A stretch of 12,047 nt of DNA from the NCBI GenBank assembly GCA_021809365.1, contig JAKBAC010000104.1, positions 1-12,047 of the forward strand, given 5' to 3'. The notes beneath the pieces are model-generated. The model ran no database searches and had not been told where the DNA came from. It saw nothing but the letters and a program-made list of their open reading frames with translations. The stretch comes from Planctomycetota bacterium (GTDB taxonomy: Bacteria > Planctomycetota > Phycisphaerae > WQYP01). The translations under genes were made by a program, and so were the position numbers. Position 1 is the first letter of the stretch, and every line of letters begins with the position of its first letter. Below are positions 5,231-10,816 of the stretch, in pieces.

Positions 5231-6442
5231 ATGGTTGATAATGTAAATAAAATTGTTCTCGCTTATTCCGGCGGGTTGGATACATCCGTGATTCTTCCCT
5301 GGCTTAAGGATAATTACCCCGGTTGCGAAGTGATCGCCTTTGCCGCGGAACTCGGTCAGGGTGATGAGCTTGCCGGCATCAAGAAAAAAGCGCTGGCCAG
5401 CGGGGCGGATCGGTGCGTCGTGGCTGATCTGCGAGAGGAATTCGCCCGTGATTACTGTTTTCCCATGCTGCGGGCCGGCGCGGTTTATGAACATCAATAT
5501 CTTCTCGGCACGTCCATCGCCCGACCGCTGATTGCCAAACATCAGGTGCGTGTGGCGCATGAACTGCACGCGGATGCGGTCAGCCATGGTGCCACCGGCA
5601 AGGGCAATGATCAGGTGCGATTTGAGCTGACCTATATGGCGCTGGGGCCGGAGTTGAAGATCATTGCGCCGTGGAAGGATGATCGCTTTGAACTGCGCAG
5701 CCGGGAGGCGGCCATTGCGTACGCCAAAGAGAAGGGCGTTCCAATCAGTCAGACGGTGAAAAAGATTTATTCGCGTGATCGCAATCTCTGGCATATTTCA
5801 CATGAGGGGGCCGATCTGGAAAATCCCGCCAATGAGCCGCTGGATGATCTCTGGGTCATGAGCGTTCCAGTCAGCAAGGCTCCGGGCAAAGCGGAGTTTG
5901 TGACCGTTGGCGTTGAAGCTGGCACGCCGGTAAGCGTCAATGGGCGCAAACTGGCGGCGCATAAAATCATTGAAACGCTCAATACTATTGCCGGTCGCCA
6001 TGGCGTAGGGCAGGTCGATCTAGTTGAAAACCGTCTGGTGGGAATGAAAAGTCGCGGGGCGTATGAGACTCCCGGCGGCACCGTTCTGCTGACCGCGATC
6101 CGGGCGTTGGAATCTGTGTGCCTGGAGCGTGAGCTGGCCCATTACAAGCAGCAGATTGCCTTGAAATATGCGGAATTGGTTTATTATGGGCAATGGTTTC
6201 ATCCCTTACGTGAAGCCCTGGACGCGTTCGTTTCCGCCGCCACACGTCAGGTGACAGGCACGGTAAAAATCCGGCTGTTCAAGGGCCGGGCCACGGTGGC
6301 CTCGGTGACATCGCCGCGCAGTTTGTATCGCAATGATCTGGCCAGCTTTACCATGGGTGGGGAATATGACGGCAAGGATGCCATCGGCTTTATTAAACTC
6401 TTCGGCCTGCCGATGAAGGTCAATGCCATGGTCAACCGCTGA
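5231..6442 (+). CDS. argG: Argininosuccinate synthase
   Basis: Condenses citrulline and aspartate with ATP to give argininosuccinate, the penultimate step of arginine synthesis, in the cytoplasm as a tetramer. Full length at 403 aa. The N-type ATP pyrophosphatase loop AYSGGLDTSV is at residues 11-20. The nucleotide/citrulline-binding GATGKGNDQVRFE and IAPWKD are present, as are the C-terminal ENRLVGMKSRGAYETPGGT and SLYRNDLASFTMGG blocks. The ATG at 5231 gives the usual N-terminus (VNKIVLAYSGG) and follows GGAG (5217-5220) by ten bases. gcvT starts 25 bases after its stop and the two are probably cotranscribed. argH is not in the window. Confidence 0.97.
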   Translation: MVDNVNKIVLAYSGGLDTSVILPWLKDNYPGCEVIAFAAELGQGDELAGIKKKALASGADRCVVADLREEFARDYCFPMLRAGAVYEHQYLLGTSIARPLIAKHQVRVAHELHADAVSHGATGKGNDQVRFELTYMALGPELKIIAPWKDDRFELRSREAAIAYAKEKGVPISQTVKKIYSRDRNLWHISHEGADLENPANEPLDDLWVMSVPVSKAPGKAEFVTVGVEAGTPVSVNGRKLAAHKIIETLNTIAGRHGVGQVDLVENRLVGMKSRGAYETPGGTVLLTAIRALESVCLERELAHYKQQIALKYAELVYYGQWFHPLREALDAFVSAATRQVTGTVKIRLFKGRATVASVTSPRSLYRNDLASFTMGGEYDGKDAIGFIKLFGLPMKVNAMVNR

Positions 6443-6467
6443 CAGTGGGTGTATACAGGAGTGTTTT

Positions 6468-7577
6468 GTGGCTGAACCGCGAACGGCGTTATTGAAAACC
6501 TGCTTCTATGACTTTCATGTGCGGCAGGGAGCCAAAATGGTGGATTTTGGTGGATGGGATATGCCTTTGTTGTATAAGGGCATTCTTGCCGAGCATGAAC
6601 AGACGCGGCGAGCCGCATCCGTGTTTGATGTCTCACACATGGGCCGGCTCTATTTTTCCGGCCCGGACGCCCAGAAATTTTTGCAACATATCTGCACGCG
6701 TGATTTATCCAATGCGGTGGTGGGGCAATCGCTGTACAGTCTGATCTGCAATTCATCCGGCGGTGTCCTGGATGATGTGATTGTCTCCAAAATGGACAAG
6801 CAGTGGTTGATGGTATGCAACGCTTCCAACCGGCTGAAACTTCTGGACTGGTTCAAGTCCAACCGTGACGGATTTGACTATCAGCTCAAGGATCAGACCA
6901 TGGAAACCGCCATGGTGGCGATTCAAGGACCCAAGGCGATCGCCCTGCTGGATGATCTGCTGCCGGAACCGGTGTCAGCATTAAAGCGTTACCATTTTAT
7001 GACGCAAAGCTATTTGATCGCGAAGTTCACGGTATTTCGCAGCGGCTACACCGGTGAGGATGGCGTGGAAATTATCTGCGGGTCCACTATTGCGCAGATG
7101 GCGTTGAATATGCTGTTCAAACAGGGGAAGGATGTCGGTGCGGCCCCGATGCAACCCGCGGGCTTAGGTGCGCGCGACACGCTGCGGATGGAGGCGGGGA
7201 TGCCGCTGTATGGCCATGAGTTAAATGAAAGTACGGATCCGATATCCGCGGGGCTGCAATGGGCCGTTGCTCCGGATAAGGAATTTATCGGCTCCGCGTC
7301 GCTGGGCAAAATCAGACAAGACGGCCCGGCCCGGCGGCTCGTGGGGCTGGCGGTGCAGGGACCTCGCATCGCCCGGCAGGGCATGACCGTTTGGGCCTCA
7401 GATCGCGAAGTCGGTGCCATTACCAGCGGGGCCAGCAGCCCCACCTTGCAGCGCGTTATTGCCATGGCGTATGTGCAGGCGGAATTTGCAAAGGAAGGTA
7501 CCGCGTTGGAAATTGACTTGCGCGGCACACGAACGGCGGCCACGGTGGTGAAGTTGCCATTCTATAGACACGGATGA
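6468..7577 (+). CDS. gcvT: Glycine cleavage system T protein (aminomethyltransferase)
   Basis: Transfers the methylene carbon from aminomethyl-lipoyl H protein to tetrahydrofolate, releasing ammonia. 369 aa, full length. The GTG at 6468 was chosen because AGGAG (6457-6461) lies six bases upstream and the protein then opens with the family's [31 protein letters not shown] N-terminus; the ATG at 6423 would overlap argG by 20 bases and add an unconserved leader. Family landmarks: FDVSHMG (residues 53-59), GGVLDD with likely catalytic Asp102, [10 protein letters not shown], and [21 protein letters not shown]. gcvH and gcvPA/gcvPB are not adjacent, so the system's genes are split in this genome or a folate-binding paralogue is present; the intact motifs favour true GcvT. 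Confidence 0.95.
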
Positions 7578-8865: not shown

Positions 8866-9534
8866 CTATTTTTCCCCCACGCCGTTCGTTAATTTCGCCG
8901 CGGCGCACAGGTGCCGCAGGAAGTTCTCGATCAGAACCAACGGAGGTGAATCGGAATTCCACATGCCCTTTTTAGCGCTATCGCCGAGCGTCATCTCCGG
9001 TTTTTCACCAATGGCGATCATTGTGTGCACCAGTGCCTTTGCCTTCCAATTAGGACTTCCGGCGACACGTTTCGCGCAGTCCAGGAAACGTTGTGCGCAA
9101 TCCAAGTCCTCCGCATTGCCGTAGGCGCTGAGGCAGGCATTTTCCAGACAACCGGGGTTGATGTTATCCGGAAAAAGATGTAATCCGCAGGCCGGACTAC
9201 CCGGCCGAACCTCCCCCGCAATTCTTGGCACCTCAAGCCCGACGTTCTCAAACGCGCCGCAAACGGAAGCGATCGCGCTTTCCACGTCAGCCTCCGCATC
9301 GCGCATCACTCCGACAGCCCTTATACATTCCCTGAATCGTGGCGCCTTTACCAGAGTCTCTATTTCCACATTTAATTCACTGATGGAACCGAAATCATAC
9401 AGGTGGATGACGGCGAATTCTTTCCGGGATAAAAACTGCGAAAGTACAAAATAGAACGCATCCGCCCCCTCGATCAGGAGCAGCACGGGTTTATCCGGGT
9501 GGGGACTATAGCTGCGCTTGCCGGCCAGATTCAT
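8866..9534 (-). CDS. Toprim-like protein (DUF3226-type), partner of the ATPase
   Basis: 222-aa protein of unproven function. The acidic motifs fit a Toprim-like fold: LLLIEGADAF with Glu22 and Asp25, then VGVMRDAEAD with Asp79, Glu81 and Asp83. A later block, LFPDNINPGCLE (about 120-131), and a C-terminal block, NWKAKALVHTM ... GDSAKKGMW ... IENFLRHLC, resemble my recollection of the DUF3226 family. Toprim domains in OLD-family proteins are metal-dependent nucleases, and DxD-type acids bind the metal; here the second acid is Glu. The ATG at 9534 overlaps the ATPase stop by one base (TGATG), implying translational coupling; a TTG at 9537 is a possible alternative. It most likely works with the ATPase as a nuclease or effector. 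Family assignment is from memory of motifs, so moderately sure. Confidence 0.75.
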   Translation of the reverse strand: MNLAGKRSYSPHPDKPVLLLIEGADAFYFVLSQFLSRKEFAVIHLYDFGSISELNVEIETLVKAPRFRECIRAVGVMRDAEADVESAIASVCGAFENVGLEVPRIAGEVRPGSPACGLHLFPDNINPGCLENACLSAYGNAEDLDCAQRFLDCAKRVAGSPNWKAKALVHTMIAIGEKPEMTLGDSAKKGMWNSDSPPLVLIENFLRHLCAAAKLTNGVGEK

Positions 9535-10649
9535 CAACGGACCTCGATTCCATGAGCACAGGCTGTTTGTATATGCACAAAATCATAGTCCTCGCAGCTT
9601 ACCTGGCCATCCTGGGATCGGTCAATCCGGAAGAGCTTGAGCGCTTCGGGCGATTCCCCAAGAGCCGCCACGGCCGCGTGCAGCATTTCCTCATTGTGGG
9701 TACTGCAAAAAAGCTGTATCTCCCGGTGCCGACAGATGCTTGGAATAGCGCGCCAGAACTTTTCCATCACGGTGTGGTGAAGCCCGGCATCAATATCATC
9801 CACGATCGTAATCTTCGGCCCATCAGCCACAAGCCCCGTTGCGATCAGGCAGGCGCGGCAGAAGCCATCACCGAGCAGAGATATGGACAGTCGCTTCGTG
9901 CTGCCCACATCGGCAAGGAGAATCGGCTGGCCCCCCAATAGCCCGACCTGAATTGATCTGCACCTGGGCTCAATGGCCTGGATAATATGAAGGAACTCCT
10001 CTTCCTCACCGCTTTCAGTAATTCGTGTGAGCGCTTCAGCGGTTTCCGAGGTACTATTTGCCCGTCGCCCCTGAATATAGAAGACCCCCAATGCCCGGGG
10101 CACCGAGCGTACCACTCCCTGTAAGCCCATGGGTATCAAGGATGCGGTGCCGGTTGAGGCCTGTCCATATTCATCCGTAAATTTGTAATTAACACCAACC
10201 AGTTTTATTCCGTCCGCCCAAAGTGGTTCTTCCGACCGGCCCGAGCCGCTGACCGGTCCATTCGCTGCCTGCGGGCCGTTCCCACTGGCCGCCGGGCTTA
10301 CTTCCAACTGCTTTGAATGAGAAATGGTTGATTGCAATCCAGTAACCGCGAGTCGCTGGGTCCCCGCATCCGTATGAGCGTTGAGAGAAATTTCCCTTCC
10401 CGCATTCAGATCAGGAAAAAATGATCGTAATGGGTAATCAATTTGATTATTCATCGGCCCCATTTCGCGCCACATGGCCAGCCTCGATAACATGTGCGGA
10501 TCGCCCGGTGAGGCCATAATTGCCAGCGCTTCGAGCACGGTTGTCTTTCCTGAACCATTGGCTCCGACAAATATATTGACCCGACCGAAGGTTCCGATGT
10601 CAAGATGCTTTATCCCACGGAAGTTGTCTATCGTTAAGGATTTTAACAT
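9534..10649 (-). CDS. OLD-like AAA/ABC-type ATPase (AAA_15/AAA_21 group)
   Basis: 371-aa ABC-type ATPase of the kind found in OLD and RecF/SMC-like proteins. The N-terminus LKSLTIDNFRGIKHLDIG is the standard opening of this group, followed by Walker A GANGSGKTT (29-37). The signature region is SISLLGDGFCR (about 255-265), Walker B ITIVDDIDAGLHH (280-292), and the switch histidine is in STHNEEM (316-322). At the position of the usual catalytic Glu the protein has Asp285. A Gly/Pro/Ala-rich low-complexity linker lies at about 118-145. There is no Toprim domain in this chain; it is encoded by the next, overlapping gene. The ATG at 10649 has GGAG seven bases upstream; longer starts up to 10721 lack this and would run over the predicted -10. 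Probably the sensor or motor of a two-gene defence module; the role is inferred from architecture. Confidence 0.88.
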   Translation of the reverse strand: MLKSLTIDNFRGIKHLDIGTFGRVNIFVGANGSGKTTVLEALAIMASPGDPHMLSRLAMWREMGPMNNQIDYPLRSFFPDLNAGREISLNAHTDAGTQRLAVTGLQSTISHSKQLEVSPAASGNGPQAANGPVSGSGRSEEPLWADGIKLVGVNYKFTDEYGQASTGTASLIPMGLQGVVRSVPRALGVFYIQGRRANSTSETAEALTRITESGEEEEFLHIIQAIEPRCRSIQVGLLGGQPILLADVGSTKRLSISLLGDGFCRACLIATGLVADGPKITIVDDIDAGLHHTVMEKFWRAIPSICRHREIQLFCSTHNEEMLHAAVAALGESPEALKLFRIDRSQDGQVSCEDYDFVHIQTACAHGIEVR

Positions 10650-10729
10650 TGCGATACTCCTGAACATCCGCCGCCTTGCGATCAACATCCGCTCTCTGCG
10701 GTCGTTGGCGACACAGATCACATGCCACC

Positions 10730-10756
10730 ATTATAACCGAGCTCCGACGTCGGCAA
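10730..10756 (-). promoter_or_regulatory. Candidate promoter of the ATPase-Toprim operon
   Basis: A perfect -10 TATAAT (10735-10730) and a -35-like TTGCCG (10756-10751; four of six) with a short 15-base spacer. The leader would be about 74 bases. A 10-bp palindrome, CCGACGTCGG (10744-10753), covers the spacer and half of the -35, where a repressor could bind. Confidence 0.45.
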
Positions 10757-10774
10757 CTGATGGCTATGCTCCCG

Positions 10775-10786
10775 GTCTGATCAGAC
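10775..10786. promoter_or_regulatory. Perfect 12-bp palindrome upstream of the ATPase gene
   Basis: GTCTGATCAGAC is its own reverse complement. It lies about 20 bases upstream of the candidate -35 of the ATPase gene and about 30 bases past the mfd stop codon. A dimeric regulator site is possible; as a hairpin it would be weak (four pairs and a GATC loop). Confidence 0.4.
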
Positions 10787-10816
10787 AGATCGTGGCAAAG
10801 CTTGGCACGACTCCAA

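Follow-up and report, generated by a model that had tools for sequence, protein, structure and literature searches.

What kind of system is formed by two overlapping genes that lie between mfd and phoH in a planctomycete? In the window (the whole 12,047-nucleotide stretch of DNA that was analyzed, contig JAKBAC010000104.1 of Planctomycetota bacterium assembly GCA_021809365.1), a gene for an ABC-type ATPase is followed on the minus strand by one for a small Toprim-like protein, and a first-pass annotation had proposed that the two form a split OLD-type anti-phage system. Our results suggest that this is probably the right reading, the pair being a two-gene split OLD-type defense module (ABC ATPase plus DUF3226 Toprim protein) that forms an accessory cassette in the mfd-phoH interval. 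The ATPase gene (10649-9534, minus strand) encodes a 371-amino-acid protein of the ABC/SMC-head type, the presumed sensor or regulator of the pair; the DUF3226 gene (9534-8866, minus strand) encodes the presumed nuclease effector, with 222 amino acids from its ATG or 223 from an alternative in-frame TTG. The two share one base in a TGATG stop/start overlap at 9536-9532 on the minus strand, as had been annotated.

The two proteins and their catalogued relatives

The small protein matched the Pfam family DUF3226 (E = 3.3e-23, residues 18-210), and structure prediction gave it a Toprim/OLD-like fold with a predicted local distance difference test score of 92, which bears out the fold proposed earlier. 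Structurally, the model came closest to PH0156 of Pyrococcus horikoshii (2p62, titled a hypothetical protein) and to class 2 OLD enzymes in their nuclease part; no AriB chain was among the best 50 structural matches listed, a result that does not in itself indicate absence. When the Protein Data Bank was searched by sequence, the small protein had no match, and an 81-row alignment of its family gave chance-level matches only. Residue conservation was counted in that alignment and in a second one of 22 rows. Among the acids named in the first pass, Glu22 and Asp79 proved invariant (22/22 and 81/81), and position 81 is acidic or amidated (D in 61, N in 14, and E in 6 of 81 rows), the window having E and thus DxE, not DxD; Asp83, present in 8/22 and 22/81 rows, is unconserved and drops out of the set. 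Two residues had been overlooked: E131, kept in 81/81 and 21/22 rows, and K166, kept in 81/81 and 22/22. In the model, E22 stands directly after strand 17-21, D79 ends strand 73-79, E131 lies within helix 130-137, and K166 lies within helix 161-175. The passages on the active site in PMC6755086 give, for the Burkholderia OLD enzyme, the Toprim glutamate E400, the DxD pair D455/D457, E404, T506, E508, and the helical-part lysine K562; the conserved acids and lysine of DUF3226 match this set in order and in structural elements, a mapping that rests on residue order and secondary structure rather than on coordinate superposition. Position 26, which is D in 74/81 rows and A in the window lineage (the neighboring D25 is retained), may correspond to E404. 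Sequence and model together indicate that the small protein retains an OLD-like catalytic set of E22, D79/E81, E131, and K166.

The motifs reported for the ATPase all held up across 65 aligned rows, the window included: Walker A residues G29, N31, and G34-K35-T36, the signature-like G260-x-G262, the Walker B D284, and the switch H318 were invariant in 65/65. The residue after the Walker B aspartate is less uniform; position 285 is Glu in 55/65 rows and Asp in 10/65, and Asp285 is common to the ATPases of the window and of its near relatives used for comparison, L001 (genome G001) and L002 (genome G002). The predicted fold, which was modeled with confidence, is near the heads of Rad50/SMC proteins, which include repair proteins, and the model aligns with GajA residues 2-371, covering the GajA ATPase part from one end to the other. 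The pair therefore looks like an OLD enzyme that has been divided where its two domains meet; with the Toprim model close to class 2 OLD, the modeled structures agree with the split OLD-type logic originally put forward. All ATPases found beside DUF3226 end in an acidic-x-Arg motif, which in the window is E369-V370-R371 (codons at 9537-9545, minus strand).

Like OLD-type enzymes in general, the window proteins have an ABC head with the Walker A and B, signature, and switch His motifs, and a Toprim fold with its Glu and a helical-part Glu and Lys; they differ in that the Walker B Asp is followed by Asp where Glu is usual, and in having DxE instead of DxD. Class 1 to 3 OLD enzymes, including Gabija, are single chains, whereas here two genes overlap by one base. 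The small protein has the Toprim fold and catalytic order of the C-terminal regions of GajA and class 2 OLD enzymes, as the ATPase has the extent of the GajA ATPase part, but no GajB helicase gene adjoins the pair, the neighbors being phoH and mfd. With PARIS (AriA/AriB, OLD class 4), the pair shares separate genes for ABC ATPase and Toprim protein; the window ATPase matches AriA (E = 2.3e-21), and a plasmid-borne relative of the small protein (L113) weakly matches AriB (E = 0.0023). The window small protein itself had no AriB or DUF4435 match at E <= 1 in searches whose HMMER filters drop most matches above 0.1, in keeping with the earlier assignment of the partner to DUF3226 rather than DUF4435; the OLD-like E131 and K166, read from the DUF3226 alignments, are a probable further difference from PARIS. 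The best profile of the window ATPase was PADLOC AbiLi (E = 2.3e-47, residues 1-371 to 1-340), and the small protein had no AbiL-named match at E <= 1 in a profile set in which the presence of an AbiLii model is unverified.

The profile searches that had been suggested for both proteins thus returned DUF3226, AbiLi, and AriA, and in addition the two halves of PDC-M38, a PADLOC candidate pair. The ATPase matches two PDC-M38A models (E = 9.3e-39 and 5.6e-34), and the small protein hits PDC-M38B models only, and weakly (E = 1.6e-5 and 1.3e-4). Other members fit far better: five of five further DUF3226 proteins match PDC-M38B (E from 6.9e-9 to 6.7e-79), and the ATPases of the same five loci match PDC-M38A (E from 1.6e-50 to 2e-139). 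Since relatives match both models, the pair type is already in a defense catalogue as a candidate. Judged by these profile scores, the window pair is a divergent member of PDC-M38, its ATPase scoring better on AbiLi than on PDC-M38A. No functional study of this widespread candidate system was found; the open-access library searched had no paper for "DUF3226" or "PDC-M38", and the main text of the 2022 PADLOC paper (PMC9252829) does not use the term PDC. The subscription literature may already describe the pair type, since PMC12839542 credits Aravind and colleagues with an earlier account of TOPRIM-linked OLD-ABC operons.

Conserved pairing and mobile relatives

The co-conservation survey called for in the first pass found a gene for an ATPase of this type directly upstream, on the same strand, in 31 of 32 DUF3226 loci (L003-L034), and the pairing is therefore not a matter of chance. 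At these junctions the genes either overlap, by 1, 4, or 16 bases, or stand no more than 12 bases apart, and among relatives an overlap of 1 or 4 bases is frequent. L007 and L010 depart from this: there the longest DUF3226 frame runs 37 and 223 bases, respectively, into the ATPase gene, probably because its start was set too far upstream. The sole unpaired locus, L013, has a transposase-like frame upstream of DUF3226 and no ATPase. A second ATPase of this type in G001 (L005, contig C8) is intact and is followed by a DUF3226 frame cut to 82 residues. Nine further loci (L037-L045, some of them repeats) included seven pairs, one locus that begins inside DUF3226 (L040), and one remnant in genome G093 (L043).

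The reverse survey agreed: DUF3226 lay directly downstream in 26 of 30 ATPase loci (L116-L145, some of them repeats; cut down in L144). Of the other four, L136 has a broken ATPase frame, L133 and L145 have no partner, and L121 has an acidic-x-Arg tail but no visible DUF3226 neighbor, the locus stopping about 260 bases later. The L133 and L145 ATPases, which look near-identical and count as one case, lack the tail as well as the neighbor. An ATPase was present in 20/20 larger regions; in two of these (L091 and L095), longest-frame picking displaced the DUF3226 frame, which is found in L006 and L010.

Whether homologs occur in core, non-defense contexts had been raised as a deciding point, and the contexts covered are of two kinds: some relatives were found on plasmids and near phage genes, and the chromosomal surroundings of others are, among the matches listed, varied and largely housekeeping. 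Neither the window small protein nor its close alignment had a match in plasmids, phages, or viral contigs. The window ATPase matched 143 plasmid records, 130 of them from Klebsiella, and no phage record; a gammaproteobacterial DUF3226 query matched 10 plasmid records, and broader DUF3226 queries matched three viral contigs and no phage record. Among the plasmids, two are from Acinetobacter, one of 40 kb and one of 9.7 kb that carries tet(39), and a third is a mobilizable Citrobacter plasmid of 6.4 kb. A Klebsiella ColRNAI plasmid of 4166 bp (L111) has its DUF3226 gene annotated as two separate pieces, and on a Plesiomonas plasmid the pair follows phage tail genes at a distance of about 3 kb; two plasmid-borne pairs had no DNA match in Escherichia coli genomes. 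All three viral contigs carry the pair, with E-V-R tails on the ATPases. In L148, an integrase frame lies upstream of it at a distance of about 370 bp, L146 has baseplate and tail-fiber frames within about 5 kb, and the single neighbor scanned in L147 had no match.

In 20 planctomycete regions, 139 selected neighbors were scanned (131 by PADLOC and Pfam, the 8 longest by PADLOC only). Among the matches listed (25 of 38 PADLOC and 25 of 117 Pfam families), the chromosomal neighbors were varied and largely housekeeping; they included three N6/N4 methylases, a type III methyltransferase, two matches to an HNH profile, and one each to the DndA/SspA, dGTPase, and mad3 profiles. We claim no enrichment of defense genes around the pair. 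Upstream of the ATPase-DUF3226 pair in L099 (G128, contig C98), at a distance of about 1 kb, is a frame that resembles a type III restriction methyltransferase.

These arrangements bear on two other explanations. The pair might be a toxin-antitoxin-like, element-stabilizing module, in which a toxic Toprim protein is restrained by the ATPase and the module persists by addiction and not by blocking phages; this is unlikely. The tight overlap and fixed gene order, the relatives on plasmids of 4 to 10 kb, and the shortened Toprim frame of L005, whose ATPase frame is intact, would all suit such a module, but the DUF3226 gene of L013 exists with a transposase-like frame in place of the ATPase. Addiction and abortive defense are, moreover, compatible, PARIS killing the cell once triggered (as summarized in PMC12409363). 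Defense directed against plasmids or other incoming DNA instead of phages appears quite improbable: a Rad50/SMC-like head combined with an OLD-like Toprim recalls by analogy the logic of the anti-plasmid system Wadjet, whose JetD is homologous to the OLD Toprim domain in the account of PMC10568477, but relatives of the pair are themselves plasmid-borne, and the window neighbors are phoH and mfd, not condensin-like genes.

Distribution and the mfd-phoH junction

The pair is accessory, not core. Within the class of G001, 46 of 298 genomes had DUF3226 matches, at 55 places in all; of 14 control genomes, only that of Methanocaldococcus jannaschii matched. Within the family of G001, the small protein was matched in 11 of 28 genomes, one of the 11 (G093) having a remnant only, whereas phoH was strongly matched in 23 and matched at any strength in 25. 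The pair is thus not universal at its locus, where its universal conservation would have spoken against an accessory insertion.

As had been noted, the window pair is flanked by two unrelated housekeeping genes, both outside the system. The minus-strand order is mfd (C-terminal part, 12046-10817, running off the window), ATPase, DUF3226, and phoH (8803-7853), with a gap of 62 bp between DUF3226 and phoH. The gap of 167 bp between the mfd stop and the ATPase start (10650-10816, minus strand) contains GGTTATAAT at 10730-10738, which recurs 5' of the pair in L001 and L002 and is absent from the output of a consensus scan; it is possibly the pair's own promoter. Elsewhere in the window, a frame at 5231-6442 resembles, by eye, argininosuccinate synthase and has a 20-base overlap with a same-strand aminomethyltransferase gene (Pfam GCV_T) taken at its longest frame; both lie within 5231-7577.

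The same junction exists in several states among related genomes. The full pair sits between mfd and phoH in the window and in G001. In G069 and G105, mfd and phoH are about 20 bases apart with nothing between them, and in G093 only a 44-residue remnant is left, which matches DUF3226 residues 176-219 at 64% identity. In G002, the pair is followed by phoH, but genes other than mfd lie upstream. Twelve other family regions have phoH with neither mfd nor the pair in view, so the junction comparison rests on the window's near kin. Because G093 retains the DUF3226 remnant, at least one loss of the pair at this junction is very likely, and the synonymous divergence (dS) of only 0.33 between the mfd parts of G001 and G105 makes the gain or loss of the pair recent.

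Among the window, G001, and G002, the non-synonymous divergence (dN) of the pair genes is 0.16-0.36, set against 0.053-0.067 for phoH and 0.025 for mfd (window-G001; none for G002) in the same genomes. The dN/dS ratio is 0.12 for the ATPase in the sole unsaturated comparison (window-L002) and 0.21-0.25 for the Toprim gene. The two genes differ in their nearest kin: the window ATPase is closer to G002 (identity 0.77) than to G001 (0.66), whereas the Toprim gene is closer to G001 (0.72) than to G002 (0.57), and the proportion of synonymous differences between the window and G001 is 0.76 in the ATPase versus 0.49 in the Toprim gene. These unequal synonymous distances hint at gene exchange within the module. 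An exchange of partners was set aside as an explanation, the rooted trees being without supported conflict and the G001 ATPase standing on a long branch.

The junction also speaks to the idea that the pair is a DNA-repair or replication accessory working with its neighbors Mfd and PhoH, which we regard as disfavored and very unlikely. The order mfd-pair-phoH is the same in the window and G001, and the modeled ABC fold would not be out of place among repair proteins, but in G069 and G105 mfd directly adjoins phoH with no pair between them, the G093 junction is scarred, the upstream gene in G002 differs from mfd, and relatives elsewhere adjoin unrelated genes or ride on mobile elements. That the window copy is an inactive, decaying family member, as Ala26 and Asp285 in its lineage and the G093 remnant might suggest, is very improbable, as neither gene is interrupted in the window, G001, or G002, the dN/dS ratios point to purifying selection, and the main catalytic residues are retained.

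Proposed mechanism and meaning

For the split OLD-type defense module that we prefer, the features of an anti-phage type that were seen are the accessory distribution of the pair and the mobile carriage of its relatives; anti-phage activity itself, as well as trigger and substrate, we infer. An oligomer of the ATPase would hold the Toprim protein, probably gripping it by the C-terminal acidic-x-Arg tail, near what is the interdomain joint of single-chain OLD enzymes, and ATP binding would hold it in a quiet state. On infection, either a phage protein or a falling nucleotide level might then alter the state of the ATPase, so that the Toprim protein is released or opened and its two-metal site cuts nucleic acid, either DNA, the substrate of class 2 OLD enzymes and Gabija, or tRNA, the substrate in PARIS; such cutting would halt phage growth at a cost to the cell. 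Both precedents come from the literature: in PARIS, an ATPase hexamer sequesters three AriB proteins, a phage trigger frees them, and the AriB dimer cuts tRNAs (PMC12409363); in Gabija, ATP binding keeps the Toprim domain closed and ATP loss opens it, GajA having likely lost ATP hydrolysis (as reported in PMC12796447). The OLD-like Glu and Lys tilt the choice of substrate toward DNA, and RNA is also plausible, by analogy, because of AriB.

Two details are new: the invariant acidic-x-Arg end of the ATPase and, at Walker B, an Asp where Glu is usual. They figure in a wider proposal that we put forward only tentatively and consider doubtful as a whole: that ATPase-DUF3226 is a widespread candidate class of immunity of the split OLD type, whose ATPase docks the Toprim effector by its invariant tail, and that the Asp-for-Glu change in the window lineage makes the ATPase a nonhydrolyzing or slowly hydrolyzing nucleotide sensor, so that a fall in ATP during infection, and not hydrolysis, frees or opens the nuclease.

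To our knowledge, PARIS is the split ATPase-Toprim system known in molecular detail. If a second Toprim partner family, distinct in sequence and equipped with OLD-like catalytic residues, serves in the same arrangement, then splitting the two proteins is compatible with different effectors, and the DUF3226 pair raises the question of whether it cuts DNA like Gabija or tRNA like PARIS. In related planctomycetes, the empty, full, and scarred states of one junction provide a natural control for the gain and loss of such a module.
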